DNA of 64,000 nucleotides from Acidobacteriota bacterium (lineage in GTDB: Bacteria > Acidobacteriota > Thermoanaerobaculia > Multivoradales > Multivoraceae), in assembly GCA_003388555.1 (NCBI GenBank), contig QQVD01000042.1:124001-188000 (forward strand), written 5' to 3'. Of the stretch, positions 16,239 through 22,466 are shown one piece after another. Every line of letters starts with the position of its first letter. Within the stretch, counting starts at the first letter, position 1. The notes under the pieces are model-generated. The model was given only the letters and a program-made list of their open reading frames with translations, made no database searches and was not told the DNA's origin. The position numbers and the translations under genes are program-made.

Positions 16239-16823
16239 TCAGGCGCCGCGCAGCGCCGGCAGCTCCTCGCCCGCGGCGACGAAACGCAGCGCCACGCCGT
16301 TGTTGCAGTAGCGCTTGCCGGTCGGGGCCGGTCCGTCGTCGAAGACGTGACCCTGGTGGCCGCCGCAGCGGGCGCAGTGGTACTCGGTGCGCGGCACCAG
16401 CAGCTTGAAGTCGCGCGAGGTGCCGAGCCGGCCTTCGATCGGGGCGTAGAAGCTCGGCCAGCCGGTGCCGCTGTCGTACTTGGTCTCGGCGTCGAAGAGC
16501 GGCAGGAAGCAGGCGGCGCAGAGGAAGAGGCCGTCGCGCTTCTCGTCGTTCAGCGGCGAGGAGAACGGGCGCTCGGTGCCCTCCTGGAAGAGCACCCGGT
16601 AGGCGTCGTCAGAGAGCACCTCGCGCCACTTCTTCTTTGGCCAGTCGAGCGGCTGCCAGTCGAGCGAGTCAGGCTTCTTCGCCGTGCTGCCTGTGCTGCC
16701 TGTGCTGCCTGTGCTGACGGTGCTGCCGCCACCAGCTTTCATCGACAGCGCCGCGACGGCGGGAGCGGCGACGGCGGCGCCGAGGGTGGCGAGCAGAGCG
16801 CGCCGATTCGGTCGGTAGAGCAT
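16239..16823 (-). CDS. msrB: Exported peptide-methionine (R)-S-oxide reductase MsrB
   Basis: A 194-residue MsrB that reduces methionine-R-sulfoxide. The two zinc CxxC pairs (L-C-A-A-C and H-C-A-R-C-G-G-H) and the catalytic R-Y-C-N-N are present, with the G-T-G-W-P-S-F segment between. The N-terminus has R-R-A-L-L-A-T-L-G-A and a hydrophobic stretch, a Tat-like signal, so it probably repairs exported proteins. A Gly-Ser-Thr linker encoded by 9-bp repeats (about 16685-16730) joins the signal to the domain. The ATG at 16823 has GGAGG 11 bases upstream on its strand; a longer frame to 16937 is unlikely. Confidence 0.92.
   Translation of the reverse strand: MLYRPNRRALLATLGAAVAAPAVAALSMKAGGGSTVSTGSTGSTGSTAKKPDSLDWQPLDWPKKKWREVLSDDAYRVLFQEGTERPFSSPLNDEKRDGLFLCAACFLPLFDAETKYDSGTGWPSFYAPIEGRLGTSRDFKLLVPRTEYHCARCGGHQGHVFDDGPAPTGKRYCNNGVALRFVAAGEELPALRGA
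16685..16730. repeat. 9-bp repeat encoding a Gly-Ser-Thr linker
   Basis: Several copies of a 9-bp unit (GTGCTGCCT and variants) encode the repeated Ser-Thr-Gly linker of exported MsrB, between the signal peptide and the catalytic domain. Confidence 0.75.
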
Positions 16824-16893
16824 GTGGGAGTCCTCCAGAGGTGAGACGTGGGGTCGCGGACGGCGTCCGTTCCTGGCGCGATAGCGTCGATCC

Positions 16894-18048
16894 ATGAATG
16901 CAAGCACGATCCCCGACATCGCCAGGCGCAACGCCAAGAAGCCCGGTCACGCCCTTCTGTCCACTGTACTGCTCTCGTTGGCTCTCGGATTCCTCACCCT
17001 CACCCTCGCCTCTCCGTCCCCCGCGCAGGAGGAGAGCGCGACGGCGTCGACGCCCCGCGTGGTGCGGGCGGTGACCCGCGAGGTGCCGCCTTTCGCCTTC
17101 CTCAACGAAGGCCAGAGGTGGGAAGGCATCAGCGTCGACCTGTGGAACCGCATCGCCGCAGACCTCGAGCTCGAGGTCGAGTGGAGCACCGCCACGGTCC
17201 CCGAGCAGATCGCGGGCCTCGAGGACGGCAGCTTCGACGTCGCGGTGGGGGCGCTGAGCATGACCGAGGAGCGCGAGCAGCGCATCGACTTCAGCCACGC
17301 GTTCTACTCCAGCGGCCTGGGCATCGCGGTGGGCTCGGCGTCGCGGCCGAGCCTGCTGCAGCAGGCCCGGGTGCTGATCTCGGGCACCTTCCTCAAGGCG
17401 CTGCTCGGGCTCACCGTGCTGCTGCTGATCGTCGGAGCGCTGATCTGGATCGCCGAGCGGCGCGGCAATCCGGATCAGTTCGGCGGCGGACCGCTGCGCG
17501 GGCTCGGCTCCGGCCTCTGGTGGGCGGCGGTGACCATGACCACCGTCGGTTACGGCGACAAGGCGCCCAGCTCACCTGCCGGTCGCGCCATCGGCCTGGT
17601 CTGGATGTTCGCCAGCCTGCTGCTGCTCGGCGGCTACGTCGCCGCCTTCGCCTCGGCGCTGACCGCCGGCCAGATGCAGGCCGGGATCGCCGGCGTCGCC
17701 GACCTCGCCGGGGTGCGCTCCGGCGTCGTCGAAGGTACCGTCAGCGAGCAGTGGGCGCGCCGTCGCGGCCTGCGCTGGCGGGGTTACCAGGACGTACAGG
17801 CGTCCCTCGACGGTTTGTCGCGCGGCGAGGTCAAGGCCGTCGTCTACGACCTGCCGCTGCTGCAGTACGCGGTGCGCCAGCACGACGACGAGGGGCTCGC
17901 GACGCTCGAGGTTCCGGTGACCCGCGAGCCCTACGGCTTCGGGCTGCCGGAGGGTAGCGCCCTACGCGACCCGGCGAACCGCGTGCTGCTCAGACTGCTG
18001 GTGACCGGCGAGGTCGACGCCATCGTCGAGAGTCACCTGGGTAACTGA
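16894..18048 (+). CDS. Prokaryotic glutamate-receptor-like potassium channel
   Basis: A 384-residue protein with the GluR0 layout. A signal peptide (to about 44) is followed by ligand lobe S1 (about 55-150), membrane helix M1 (about 167-187), a pore loop (205-222), helix M2 (about 231-257) and ligand lobe S2 (about 265-384). The pore contains T-V-G-Y-G-D at 217-222, the K+-channel selectivity filter. S1 carries the periplasmic amino-acid-binding pattern ending T-E-E-R-E-Q-R-I-D-F-S, with the Arg that usually contacts the ligand carboxylate. It therefore looks like an amino-acid-gated K+ channel with an external sensor. It is divergent from msrB by 70 bp. The ligand is unknown. Confidence 0.9.
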   Translation: MNASTIPDIARRNAKKPGHALLSTVLLSLALGFLTLTLASPSPAQEESATASTPRVVRAVTREVPPFAFLNEGQRWEGISVDLWNRIAADLELEVEWSTATVPEQIAGLEDGSFDVAVGALSMTEEREQRIDFSHAFYSSGLGIAVGSASRPSLLQQARVLISGTFLKALLGLTVLLLIVGALIWIAERRGNPDQFGGGPLRGLGSGLWWAAVTMTTVGYGDKAPSSPAGRAIGLVWMFASLLLLGGYVAAFASALTAGQMQAGIAGVADLAGVRSGVVEGTVSEQWARRRGLRWRGYQDVQASLDGLSRGEVKAVVYDLPLLQYAVRQHDDEGLATLEVPVTREPYGFGLPEGSALRDPANRVLLRLLVTGEVDAIVESHLGN

Positions 18049-18089: not shown

Positions 18090-18341
18090 TCAGCGCCCGG
18101 CCAGGACCTCGCGCGCGGCGCTGGCGTGCTCCCGCGGCACGCGCAGGTGGCCCGGCTGGCCGGCGGGGTCGACCGAGCCGGCGGAGAGGCCCGGCACCGA
18201 CAGTCGATCGGGACTGATGACGGGGATCCCGGCCGCCTCGAGGGCCGATCGCGCGGCGAGGAACTCGCCCATGTCGTGGGTCTCGAAGACGGTGACGTAC
18301 TCGGTCTTCTCGTGTCCGGCGGGATCGCGTGCGTCGCTCAT
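18090..18341 (-). CDS. DUF2007-family small protein
   Basis: An 83-residue cytosolic protein. The pattern Y-V-T-V-F-E-T-H-D-M-G-E-F-L-A-A-R-S-A-L-E-A-A-G-I-P, followed by a C-terminal V-P-R-E-H-A-S-A-A-R-E-V-L, matches the DUF2007 (putative signal-transducing) fold, a small ferredoxin-like domain. It begins at the ATG at 18341; the frame is open far upstream across the HDAC gene but that is shadow. Function unknown. It is divergent from the deacetylase gene. Confidence 0.75.
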   Translation of the reverse strand: MSDARDPAGHEKTEYVTVFETHDMGEFLAARSALEAAGIPVISPDRLSVPGLSAGSVDPAGQPGHLRVPREHASAAREVLAGR

Positions 18342-18476
18342 CGGGTGGGTCGACTTCCCTCGGTCGGTTCTGACGGATCGCGGCGCTCGCGGCCGCGGGT
18401 TCATCTTGTCACGTCGCGTCCGATGGCCCGACTCGAGTCCCGGCGACCGCGGCGCTTTCGCTACAGTGCGGCCGCA

Positions 18477-19478
18477 GTGAGCGAGACCAGCCCAGAAGCA
18501 GCACGCCGGTCCAGCCCGACACGCGTCTACCTGCACCCGGCGAGTACGGGCCACCAGGTGCCGCGTGGGTTCCCGGAGTGTCCCGAGCGCATCGAGAGTG
18601 CCGAGGCGGGCCTGCGCCGCCTCGGATGGCAGCTGGTGGAGCGCCCCGACGACTCGCCGGATACGCAGCAACGGGCTCTCGTCGAAGCCGTGCACACGCC
18701 GGAGTACCTGGCGCGGTTCGAACACGCCGTGGCGCGGGGCGCCCGCTTCCTCGACGGATCCGACAACCCGATCTCGGCCGGTACGTCCGCGGCGGCCTGG
18801 GGCGCGGTGACCACCGCCCTGGAGGCGGCACGGGCGACGCTCGCCGGCGAGACCCGGCACGCCTTCTCGCTCACCCGTCCTCCGGGACACCACTGCGAGC
18901 GCGACCGCGCCATGGGATTCTGCTTCCTCAACCAGGTCGCCGTGGTCGCCGAGCACCTGCTGCGCACCACCGACGCCGAGCGGATCGCCATCGTCGATTT
19001 CGACGTGCACCACGGCAACGGCACCCAGCACCTGTTCGAGGAGCGCGCCGACGTCTTCTACCTCAGCCTGCACCAGTGGCCCTTCTATCCCGGCACCGGC
19101 GCCCGGGAGGAGCGGGGCGTCGGAGCGGGCGAGGGCTGCACCCTGAACCTGCCGCTGCCCGCCGGTACCGGCGACGAGGGGTTCCTCGAGGCCTTCGAGG
19201 ACGCGGCCCTGCCGGCGCTGCGCGACTACGGTCCCGACCTGCTGCTGGTGTCGGCGGGATTCGACGCCTGGCGCGGCGACCCTCTCGGCGGCATGAACCT
19301 CAGTGCGCAGGCCTACTGTCGGCTGGGGACCCTCCTGGCGGAGCTCGCCGATGAGCGCTGCGGCGATCGTCTCGTCTCGGTGCTCGAGGGCGGCTACGAT
19401 CTCGCGGCCCTCGCCGACCTCGTCGACGCCTACCTCGCCGGAGCCGCCGGCGTGAGATACTCCAGGGTCTCCCAGTAG
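18477..19478 (+). CDS. Histone-deacetylase-family (acetoin utilisation/APAH-type) amidohydrolase
   Basis: A 333-residue zinc deacetylase of the arginase/HDAC superfamily. R-P-P-G-H-H carries the catalytic His pair. D-F-D-V-H-H-G-N-G-T-Q supplies the zinc Asp and His, G-F-D-A-W the second zinc Asp, and E-G-G-Y-D-L the late conserved Gly-Gly-Tyr. Bacterial members deacetylate acetylpolyamines, small acetamides or acetyl-lysine. A GTG at 18477 is the best start, because the product then reaches the conserved P-E-C-P-E-R substrate-lid motif at about residue 35. Agmatine genes elsewhere in the window make an acetylpolyamine substrate attractive but unproven. Confidence 0.88.
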   Translation: MSETSPEAARRSSPTRVYLHPASTGHQVPRGFPECPERIESAEAGLRRLGWQLVERPDDSPDTQQRALVEAVHTPEYLARFEHAVARGARFLDGSDNPISAGTSAAAWGAVTTALEAARATLAGETRHAFSLTRPPGHHCERDRAMGFCFLNQVAVVAEHLLRTTDAERIAIVDFDVHHGNGTQHLFEERADVFYLSLHQWPFYPGTGAREERGVGAGEGCTLNLPLPAGTGDEGFLEAFEDAALPALRDYGPDLLLVSAGFDAWRGDPLGGMNLSAQAYCRLGTLLAELADERCGDRLVSVLEGGYDLAALADLVDAYLAGAAGVRYSRVSQ

Positions 19479-19564
19479 CGAGGCGGTGCGGGCGCGGCCC
19501 CCTCTTCCGGCGGGTCGCGGTCGCCGTGACCTCGCCTCCCTCGAGCACCAACGGTGATCCACGC

Positions 19565-20653
19565 ATGAGTCCGGCGAAGAAGAAGGCCAGCGCCAAGAAG
19601 AAGACGGCCAGTGCAAAGAAGGCCACCAGCGCCAAGAAGACGAGTACCAGGAAGAAGAAGACTCCCGCCAAGAAGAAGACGACCGCCAAGAAGGTGACGC
19701 CGCCGCGTCGCGGCAAGCCGACGATGGTGCTCTTCGGCGAAGGGGACCTGGCGACCGCCTGCCTCGAACACCTCAGTGAGACCGGCTCCTTCGAGCTGCC
19801 GCTGCTGGTCACCGTGCCCACCAGTGCCGACCGCTCCTACGCCGGCACCAAGGGACTGCATGCGATGGCGAAACGCTGCGGTGTCGACAAGGTGCTGTTC
19901 AAGCGCAGCGCCGCCGCCGAGGTGACCGAGCGCATCGAAGCGCTCGAACCGACGCTGATCGTCTTCACCGACTTCTACCGTTCACAGGCGAACGAGCTGT
20001 TCCCGGAGCGAGACAACTGCTTCCGGCTGCACTGTTCGTTGCTGCCGAAGCTGCGCGGCGCCGATCCGCTGCGCCGGGCGCTCGACAACGGCGACAAGGT
20101 GCTCGGCGCGACCCTGATCGAGTGTGTCGAAGAGCCCTACGAGGGCCCGATCCTGGGCCGTGCCGAGGTCGAGACCGACGGCGAGGAGAAGTACGGCTTC
20201 ATCTGTGACGAAGTGCACCAGGCCGCCGCCGAGCTGCTCGAGGAGGTCGGCGCCAAGCTGGCGGCCGGCAAGCGGGTCAAGCGTTCGCCGCAGAGCGACA
20301 AGGGAGTCACCCTGGCCGGCCGGATGACCGAGCAGCATCGCAAGGTGCCCTGGGTGCGCGGCGCCGCCCAGGTCTACAACCGCCTGCGCGCCTTCGCTCC
20401 CCATCCGGGCCTGGTCACCCTGGTGCAGCGCCGCCAGGCGGTGATCGAAGGCGGCACTCCGATGACCTGGGAGACGGCGCCGTTCGGGCTGCCGGGCACC
20501 TTCCTCGGCGTGCGCCAGGGCCGCATCGCGGTGCTCTGCGGCGAGAACTCGGTGTTCGGCATCTCGCGCCTCGGATGGGAGGGCGAGGAGGCCATGGGCG
20601 CCGCCGAGTTCGTAAGCAAGGAGCGCCTCAGCATGGGAACGCGCTTCGTCTGA
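19565..20653 (+). CDS. Formyltransferase-fold protein with histone-H1-like Lys/Ala tail
   Basis: A 362-residue protein. Residues 1-50 are a basic tail (18 Lys in 50) built of S-A-K-K and A-K-K-K steps, like the DNA-binding tail of histone H1 or bacterial AlgP. From about 53 a formyltransferase N-domain follows, with H-C-S-L-L-P-K-L-R-G at 156-165 and G-A-T-L-I-E-C, then a C-terminal beta domain as in methionyl-tRNA formyltransferase. The family's catalytic Asn two residues before the His is Arg154 here, and the D-T-G motif reads Y-E-G, so normal formyl transfer is doubtful. The ATG at 19565 begins the tail. It follows the HDAC gene by 86 bp. Confidence 0.75.
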   Translation: MSPAKKKASAKKKTASAKKATSAKKTSTRKKKTPAKKKTTAKKVTPPRRGKPTMVLFGEGDLATACLEHLSETGSFELPLLVTVPTSADRSYAGTKGLHAMAKRCGVDKVLFKRSAAAEVTERIEALEPTLIVFTDFYRSQANELFPERDNCFRLHCSLLPKLRGADPLRRALDNGDKVLGATLIECVEEPYEGPILGRAEVETDGEEKYGFICDEVHQAAAELLEEVGAKLAAGKRVKRSPQSDKGVTLAGRMTEQHRKVPWVRGAAQVYNRLRAFAPHPGLVTLVQRRQAVIEGGTPMTWETAPFGLPGTFLGVRQGRIAVLCGENSVFGISRLGWEGEEAMGAAEFVSKERLSMGTRFV

Positions 20654-20858
20654 GCCGCTGAGGGTGAGGCGACCGAGACCGCGAGTGTCGACGAGATCCC
20701 CAGCACGCCCGCGCTCGAGGCCCGGGCGGGGCTCGTCAGGGGCCGGCGGCGCTGAAACATCCCTCCCGGCGGCAGCGTAGATCGAGCGCGAACCCCCCGC
20801 ACGGCCGACCTGCGTCAGTTCTGGCGTCAGGGCCGCGATGGCACGAGAGGAGTTGCCG

Positions 20859-22466
20859 ATGTCCGCAGCGCAGTCCGTCCGAGATCATTGCCGGGTCGTC
20901 CGCGTCCTCCCGCCAATGCTCCTGCTGACGCTCCTGATCCTCCTCGGCGGCGGGGCGGCGGTGGCCGGGGCAGCCATGGACGCCCCCACCTTCGTCGACC
21001 ACGTGGCGCCGCTGCTGCACCAGAACTGCGCCGGCTGCCACCGGCCCGGCGACATCGCGCCGATGGCGCTGCGCAGCTACGACGAGGTGCGTCCGTGGGC
21101 GAAGTCGATCGCTCGCGTGGTCCAGGACCGCGAGATGCCGCCGTGGGACGCCGACCCGGGATACGGGCCGTGGTCCAACGACATCAGCCTGTCGCAGGAG
21201 GAGATCGATCTGCTGACCCGCTGGGTCGCCGCCGGGGCGCCGCGCGGCGAGGGGGCGGAGCCGGCGCTGCCGGAGGCCGCCGACCCGGACGCCTGGAGGC
21301 TCGGCGAGCCCGACTGGGTGTGGGAGTTCGATCCGGTCGAGGTCACGGCCGACGGCCCCGACTCCTTCGTCGTCGTGCCGATCCCCAACGACGCGGAGGA
21401 GGACCGCTGGATCACCGGCATCGAGGTCAAGCCCGGAGACCCCTCGGTGGTGCACCACTTCATCCTCTGGCGGGCCGACGAGGCGAACAGCAACCAGGAG
21501 TCGTGGATGGGTGGCTGGGCTGCGGGCGCGCCGCAGGCCATGCTGCCGCCGGGCACGGCCCGCTTCCTGCCCGCCGGGCGCTCGATGCTCGGGGACTTCC
21601 ACTACCACCCGAGCGGTGAGGCGACCGTCGACCAGACCAAGATCGGTTTCCACTTCGCCTCGGAGGAGGAGATCGAGAAGGAGCTGGTCAACCTCTGGAT
21701 CCTGAACGCCGAGTTCCGCATCCCGCCGGGGGCGCCGAACCACCGCGCCGAGGCGTCCCACACCTTCCGCGAGGACGTGCGCGTCCTCTCGCTGGCGCCG
21801 CACATGCACTACCGCGGCAAGGACATGACCTACACCGCGGTGCTGCCGGACGGCGAGAGCAGAGAGCTGCTCAAGGTCAGCGACTACGACTTCAACTGGC
21901 AGATGGGCTACGACTTCGCGCAGCCGCTCGACCTGCCGGCGGGCTCGCGCATCGACGTCGTCGCCCACTGGGACAACTCGCCGGACAATCCCGCCAACCC
22001 GGACCCGACCAAGGAGGTCACCTTCGGCACCGACTCCACCGACGAGATGATGATCGGCTTCGTCGACTACGTGGTGCAGGAGGGCCGTCGTCCGAAGCCG
22101 GCCAGCCCGGTGATCAGCAAGTTGGTGGAGCTCGCGGAACGCTACCCGGGCCAGGCCTGGAGGCTCGATCTGGCGCGCTCTCCGGGCGCCGATCCCGAGC
22201 CGATGGCGATCCATCTGCCGAGGAACGGTGATTCCGGCGGCTGGTACGTGCAGTTCGGCAACCTGGCGCTGCCGGCCCCGATCCAGGAGATCGAGTGGAA
22301 CGGCGACCGGGTGTCCGCCAAGGCGCTGCTGCCGGGACAGGAGCCGGTGCCCCTCACGGCCACGGTCGATCCGGCGAGCGGCGAGCTGACGCTCGAGATG
22401 TTCGGCGGCGAGATGATCGGCTCGCCGGCCGAGCGTGAGCGCTCGGCGCTGCCGGAAGGCCCCTGA
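20859..22466 (+). CDS. Cytochrome c fused to copper type II monooxygenase-like (PHM) domain
   Basis: A 535-residue exported protein. After a signal peptide comes a small heme-c domain with C-A-G-C-H at 57-61. Then a two-part beta fold like the copper type II, ascorbate-dependent monooxygenases follows: V-V-H-H-F-I-L-W resembles the CuH site and H-M-H-Y-R-G the CuM site, with a further H-Y-H-P. Such fusions are recurrent in Acidobacteriota and Planctomycetota. A periplasmic copper oxidase or monooxygenase fed electrons through the heme is inferred. The ATG at 20859 is preceded by GAGAGGAG; an in-frame ATG at 20838 lacks one. Confidence 0.82.
   Translation: MSAAQSVRDHCRVVRVLPPMLLLTLLILLGGGAAVAGAAMDAPTFVDHVAPLLHQNCAGCHRPGDIAPMALRSYDEVRPWAKSIARVVQDREMPPWDADPGYGPWSNDISLSQEEIDLLTRWVAAGAPRGEGAEPALPEAADPDAWRLGEPDWVWEFDPVEVTADGPDSFVVVPIPNDAEEDRWITGIEVKPGDPSVVHHFILWRADEANSNQESWMGGWAAGAPQAMLPPGTARFLPAGRSMLGDFHYHPSGEATVDQTKIGFHFASEEEIEKELVNLWILNAEFRIPPGAPNHRAEASHTFREDVRVLSLAPHMHYRGKDMTYTAVLPDGESRELLKVSDYDFNWQMGYDFAQPLDLPAGSRIDVVAHWDNSPDNPANPDPTKEVTFGTDSTDEMMIGFVDYVVQEGRRPKPASPVISKLVELAERYPGQAWRLDLARSPGADPEPMAIHLPRNGDSGGWYVQFGNLALPAPIQEIEWNGDRVSAKALLPGQEPVPLTATVDPASGELTLEMFGGEMIGSPAERERSALPEGP

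Follow-up and report, generated by a model that had tools for sequence, protein, structure and literature searches.

An Fmt-like paralogue without the catalytic asparagine in one order of Thermoanaerobaculia

Gene, domains and fold

Methionyl-tRNA formyltransferase (Fmt) formylates initiator tRNA, is very widespread among bacteria and carries a C-terminal domain that helps hold tRNA. The window, which is the whole 64,000-nucleotide stretch of DNA that was analysed, encodes an Fmt-like paralogue behind a lysine-rich start (Table 1), and the question raised by this locus is what such a protein does when catalytic residues of its formyltransferase domain have been replaced. The first-pass annotation had described a lysine-rich start joined to a formyltransferase fold without catalytic residues; this description was confirmed by the open reading frame, the Pfam matches and alignment to the solved Fmt structure 4iqf. 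An in-frame GTG at position 19526 is an alternative start upstream of the ATG, and the G+C content by codon position, with the frame counted from 19526, was.64,.50 and.89.

Table 1. Features at the paralogue locus (positions are those of the window)
Feature	Position	Strand	Basis and remarks
Upstream ORF, histone-deacetylase-family domain	18126..19478	+	PF00850, E 1.9e-89; neighbour, no conserved unit
Fmt-like paralogue, CDS	19565..20653	+	Reading frame, Pfam matches; 362 aa
Lys/Ala/Ser/Thr tail, residues 1-50	19565..19714	+	Composition, pLDDT 41-62; predicted disordered
N-terminal Rossmann-like formyltransferase domain, ~residues 52-235	19718..20269	+	PF00551, model, Foldseek; catalytic Asn and Asp lost
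R154 codon, site of the catalytic Asn (E. coli N106)	20024..20026	+	N in 81/81 canonical rows, 0/8 clade members
H156 codon, retained catalytic His (E. coli H108)	20030..20032	+	8/8 clade members, 81/81 canonical rows
Y192 codon, site of the catalytic Asp (E. coli D144)	20138..20140	+	D in 81/81 canonical rows; clade W6 Y1 D1
C-terminal domain, ~residues 236-362	20270..20650	+	PF02911, alignment; basic; 18 of the 33 positions invariant in the clade

Both Formyl_trans_N (6.3e-13) and Formyl_trans_C (1.8e-11) were matched above their Pfam cut-offs; the Fmt architecture is complete, with the C-terminal domain present besides the formyltransferase domain. The score on TIGR00460 was 107.6 bits, below the equivalog cut-off of 201.5. 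In the structure model, which was built from a 20-row alignment, the pLDDT was at least 90 at 237 of the 362 residues, and the low values given in Table 1 for the tail are block means. The best solved structures in Foldseek were Fmts, with 4iqf first; the Fmt entries among the top 15 had target-length TM-scores of 0.86-0.90, and ArnA entries were interleaved from rank 7. The paralogue thus resembles Fmt (TIGR00460, PF00551 plus PF02911; PDB 1fmt, 2fmt, 4iqf) in its fold and in having both domains in order, and it retains the catalytic His, the SLLP loop followed by R-G, and residues Q243, W263, R275, P279 and G282.

The fold is also shared with the formyltransferase domain of ArnA and with the sugar N-formyltransferases, to which the sequence match is partial; their sequence scores with the window's protein were lower than those of Fmt, and no sugar-pathway domain was found by a Pfam scan of six neighbouring proteins. 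ArnA and the sugar N-formyltransferases retain the Asn-His-Asp triad. The siderophore formyltransferases also retain it, according to the available part of PMC4786211.

A clade beside canonical Fmt

When profile A2 was run on 72 genomes of the order, including the window's own, eight proteins scored 423-472 bits and the next, a canonical Fmt, scored 336 bits, although this gap is biased because seven of the eight, chosen partly for the missing Asn, had themselves served to build A2; their loss of Asn is likewise not independent. Independent support for the clade came from the eighth member (G060, found by its score and equated with L038, the core sequence of which had been removed as a copy), from the tree, and from the TIGR00460 scores, which were 101-152 bits and below the cut-off in all eight members. 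From 121 near-full-length matches, 89 different rows were kept for the alignment (81 canonical and eight from the clade). In the tree, which took 57 of these 89 rows (the 32 omitted were mostly Gastranaerophilales) and for which the drawn root is a midpoint only, the eight members formed one group with support of 100/99, with a single change on the tree. This clade sits inside a group (support 98/94) that also contains five canonical Fmts from the same order.

The paralogue was found in 8 of the 72 genomes of this one Thermoanaerobaculia order (Acidobacteriota), with a patchy distribution across three families; in the window's family, 21 genomes of one other genus had no paralogue at the A2 score level. 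The clade comprises eight members only, and the seven other than the window's copy, where named, are from metagenome-assembled genomes. No member was found outside the order among 148 genomes of the class, where the 13 matches at E 1e-80 were the eight clade members and five canonical Fmts, or in a sample of 396 genomes of the phylum, where the five matches were four clade members and one canonical Fmt. In a contig scan with one peptide pattern, which kept 80 of 418 relatives, the top 7 were clade members and none of the others matched better than E 1e-23. The class, phylum and contig scans alike would overlook inactive copies of greater divergence. Genome size was greater in the eight genomes with the paralogue than in the remaining 64 (Mann-Whitney P ~6e-5, from rounded sizes uncorrected for kinship).

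A canonical Fmt, scoring 243-296 bits on TIGR00460, was also present in seven of the eight paralogue-bearing genomes. The remaining genome, G003, had no canonical Fmt above the TIGR00460 cut-off; this assembly is in 1390 contigs and is ~92% complete, so the absence is unsure.

Catalytic positions, constraint and possible function

On alignment to 4iqf, the Asn-His-Asp triad reads R154-H156-Y192 in the window's copy, with Y192 lying within Y-E-G. According to the available part of PMC4786211, Asn106, His108 and Asp144 are the catalytic triad and SLLP has a part in folate binding. The earlier proposal of a repurposed formyltransferase without catalytic residues was supported, since the catalytic Asn was missing from all eight members of the clade; the catalytic Asp was retained in one, G032. 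Arg154 itself was not conserved: residue 154 was Gly in three members, Glu in two, and Arg, Lys or Gln in one each, and R154 was ruled out as a newly conserved catalytic residue; nor did catalytic residues at other sites come to light. In further contrast to Fmt, none of the eight had the G-R-[GKRQ] tRNA-recognition loop motif (the E. coli R42 loop), which was present in 75 of the 81 canonical rows, or G-T-P or A-T-P near residue 58, present in 78 of the 81. In E. coli Fmt, this basic insertion loop contacts initiator tRNA at its acceptor stem, as described in the available parts of PMC13234167 and PMC8843374.

Other positions were held across the clade. H156, S158, L160, P161, K162, R164 and G165 were invariant; SLLP was intact in the window's copy, position 159 being Leu in just four of the eight members. 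All eight had R170, at a site occupied by Gln in 30 of the order's 34 canonical rows, and W192, a change from Asp that is specific to the clade, was present in six. Further clade-specific residues were found near the start of the C-terminal domain, namely H258 and R259 (seven of eight each) and P262 (eight of eight).

The 33 positions that were invariant in the clade were divided between the N-terminal domain (15 of its 183 positions) and the C-terminal domain (18 of 127). In sets of eight canonical rows, the C-domain share of invariant positions had a mean of 0.16 and a maximum of 0.35 (13,999 sets, being those of 20,000 draws with a mean identity below 46%); in sets from the order alone, the mean was 0.23 and the maximum 0.33 (5,000 sets). 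Mean identity in the N-terminal domain was 36% in the clade compared to 59% in the order's 34 canonical Fmt rows, and in the C-terminal domain it was 43% compared to 44%. From these alignments it is clear that the excess conservation of the N-terminal domain, which is a feature of Fmt, is gone and that the conservation of the C-terminal domain has not been lost. The argument from the C-terminal domain is weakened because 127 of the 310 positions (41%) belong to this domain, which places the clade's 18 of 33 (55%) just modestly above its share, and because 51 of the 126 invariant positions (40%) of the five nearest canonical Fmts also lie there. Part of the pattern may therefore predate the catalytic loss, yet a few close sequences would be expected to lie near 41% in any case. 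The net charge of the C-terminal domain was +6 to +14 in all eight members; it does not discriminate, because the five nearest canonical Fmts are also at +8 or +9.

In the one close pair of paralogues, from G052 and G060 (81% identical), dN was 0.122 and dS 1.16 (NG86), near the values for canonical Fmt in that genome pair (dN 0.108, dS 1.63); dS exceeded 1 in all seven pairs, which makes dN/dS rough, and reliance was therefore placed on this closest pair alone. Judged from these substitution rates, the paralogue in this pair is plainly under selection.

We tentatively favour the interpretation that the protein is an Fmt paralogue that no longer transfers formyl groups and acts by binding, probably to RNA, which would make it an ancestral enzyme that has probably taken on a different role. 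The Rossmann half would serve as a folded scaffold with an altered, possibly ligand-binding pocket, and the basic C-terminal domain, which is at least as constrained as the N-terminal domain, would probably still bind RNA or an RNA-containing partner. The protein would then act as a regulator, decoy or adaptor alongside the canonical Fmt. That a clade-wide, catalytically dead paralogue still holds initiator tRNA or other RNA through its C-terminal domain, and controls formylation or the initiation of translation in the presence of the active Fmt, is quite unlikely. A literature search, with most subscription journals outside its reach, found no report on point for inactive or duplicate Fmts and no case of an inactive Fmt paralogue that regulates formylation or translation initiation. 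Several observations count against the favoured interpretation: G032 keeps the Asp, G003 shows no canonical Fmt, and the clade consists of eight sequences only. In addition, the invariant residues from H156 to G165, together with R170 and W192, suggest that the pocket may be under selection, perhaps for chemistry.

New chemistry is the main rival, and it is somewhat unlikely. Here the pocket formed by H156, S158, K162, R164, R170 and W/Y192 would catalyse another reaction without Asn or Asp, for example with another acyl donor or by hydrolysis. The invariance of the first five of these residues in all eight members, the clade-specific replacements of Gln by R170 and of Asp by W192, and the low dN/dS of the one pair speak for such an enzyme. 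Position 154 is variable, however, no Asn or Asp is invariant among the eight rows (the best acids, D130, E200 and E208, reach seven of eight), the identity of the N-terminal domain has fallen to 36%, and there is no shared neighbour to point to a pathway, save in two genomes of one genus.

It is improbable that the paralogue is a functionless duplicate in slow decay. Branches leading to the window's copy (1.41) and to G032 (1.16) are long and the catalytic positions have drifted, as decay would predict, but the match was free of internal stops in all eight members from three families, dN/dS was low in the sole close pair, and R170, H258, R259 and P262 are conserved in a clade-specific manner.

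Slightly less probable still is a working Fmt, or another formyltransferase, with rearranged catalytic residues. The near-complete fold, with the TM-scores to Fmt entries given above, argues for it, as do the His in all eight members, the SLLP of the window's copy and the lack in G003 of any other Fmt above the cut-off. Against it are the loss of the Asn (8/8), the Asp (7/8), the tRNA-loop motif (8/8) and the G-T-P motif near residue 58 (8/8), with no invariant Asn or Asp in replacement, and the canonical Fmt found in seven of the eight genomes.

The lysine-rich tail and the neighbouring genes

Residues 1-50 comprise 18 Lys, 3 Arg, 9 Ala, 13 Ser or Thr and no Asp or Glu. Seven neighbouring ORFs contain 38 Lys in 2626 residues, against which 18 in 50 has a binomial P of ~9e-21, a value that says only that the composition is odd. 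Comparison of homologues did not support a view of this tail as a defining part of the protein, and the tail proved to be largely a non-conserved, low-complexity stretch: it was long in two of the eight members (50 residues in the window's copy and ~30 in G002, the start codon of which is unsure), a stub in one (AAKKK in G003) and absent from five. A clade-wide, histone-H1-like Lys/Ala region was ruled out on these eight members.

Exact-pattern scans of the same genome picked up three further genes with Lys/Ala repeats, and this number may be too low because the scans miss the window's own tail. One (L160, G000:C19 ~70095-70403) encodes a small protein that consists almost entirely of A-K-K-K repeats and resembles bacterial histone H1; another (L168, G000:C25) encodes a DksA/TraR-type zinc-finger protein with a long N-terminal Lys/Ala tail and an HC2 match below its cut-off; the third (L173, G000:C54) encodes a WS/DGAT acyltransferase with a Lys-rich tail at its C terminus. 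The tail of the paralogue is like the histone-H1-like tails of AlgP, PhaF and chlamydial HC2 in being of low complexity, basic and predicted to be disordered; it differs from them in being N-terminal, short and attached to an enzyme fold, and the window's protein had no HC2 match (Pfam, E 0.01). Such tails can bind DNA and matter for polyphosphate granules in the case of AlgP, according to the available part of PMC9239181. Nothing was found here that links the window's protein to either. The tail is a recurrent low-complexity add-on that is minor and lineage-specific.

The deacetylase-family gene lies on the same strand as the paralogue, with 86 bases between its stop and the ATG. In all seven other members a different gene lies directly upstream: an FtsX/MacB-type permease in two, and a kinase-TPR protein, an epoxide hydrolase, a symporter, a molybdopterin oxidoreductase and a secretin-type protein in one each. 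No deacetylase homologue was found in the available flanks of these seven, three of which end at contig ends (L036 downstream, L037 on both sides and L038 upstream at 1.7 kb). Homologues were located on other contigs in six of the seven genomes, a position still compatible with nearness at cut contig ends, and G002 had none at E 0.001. The proposed link to the histone deacetylase was therefore rejected on the differing upstream genes, the flanks without a homologue and the location of the homologues elsewhere. No conserved operon surrounded the clade members, save between two genomes of one genus; unlike the paralogue, canonical fmt lay between the FtsK and RsmB genes in both genomes checked (G000 and G043).

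Other genes near the paralogue in the window encode a solute-binding domain into which an ion-channel domain with a TTVGYGD stretch is inserted (16894-18048, + strand), a product that we take to resemble a prokaryotic ionotropic glutamate receptor, and a protein that carries an STG repeat at its N terminus and a SelR domain, as in peptide methionine sulfoxide reductase B (16239-16937, - strand). The product of 20838-22466 (+ strand) gave weak matches to copper monooxygenase C-terminal and cytochrome c domains, both below curated cut-offs; in G002, too, a relative (L035) lies at a distance of ~8 kb from the clade member.

The earlier hint of a histone-like or lysine-modifying role was not borne out by a tail found in a minority of members beside a neighbour that is not conserved, and a nucleoid factor that partners the deacetylase-family protein, to which the Lys-rich tail and the close same-strand gene might point, has a negligible probability in view of the five tail-less members, the other upstream genes and flanks without a homologue in the remaining seven, and the Lys/Ala tails on the zinc-finger protein and the acyltransferase of the same genome.

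If the paralogue is instead a former enzyme that acts by binding, the basic tail would have been added in the window's family and would strengthen binding to polyanions. The clade would then offer a natural experiment on the uses of the Fmt fold other than formyl transfer, in genomes that mostly have an intact Fmt. It also cautions against naming such genes fmt on a domain match alone, and against inferring function from Lys/Ala tails in such genomes.
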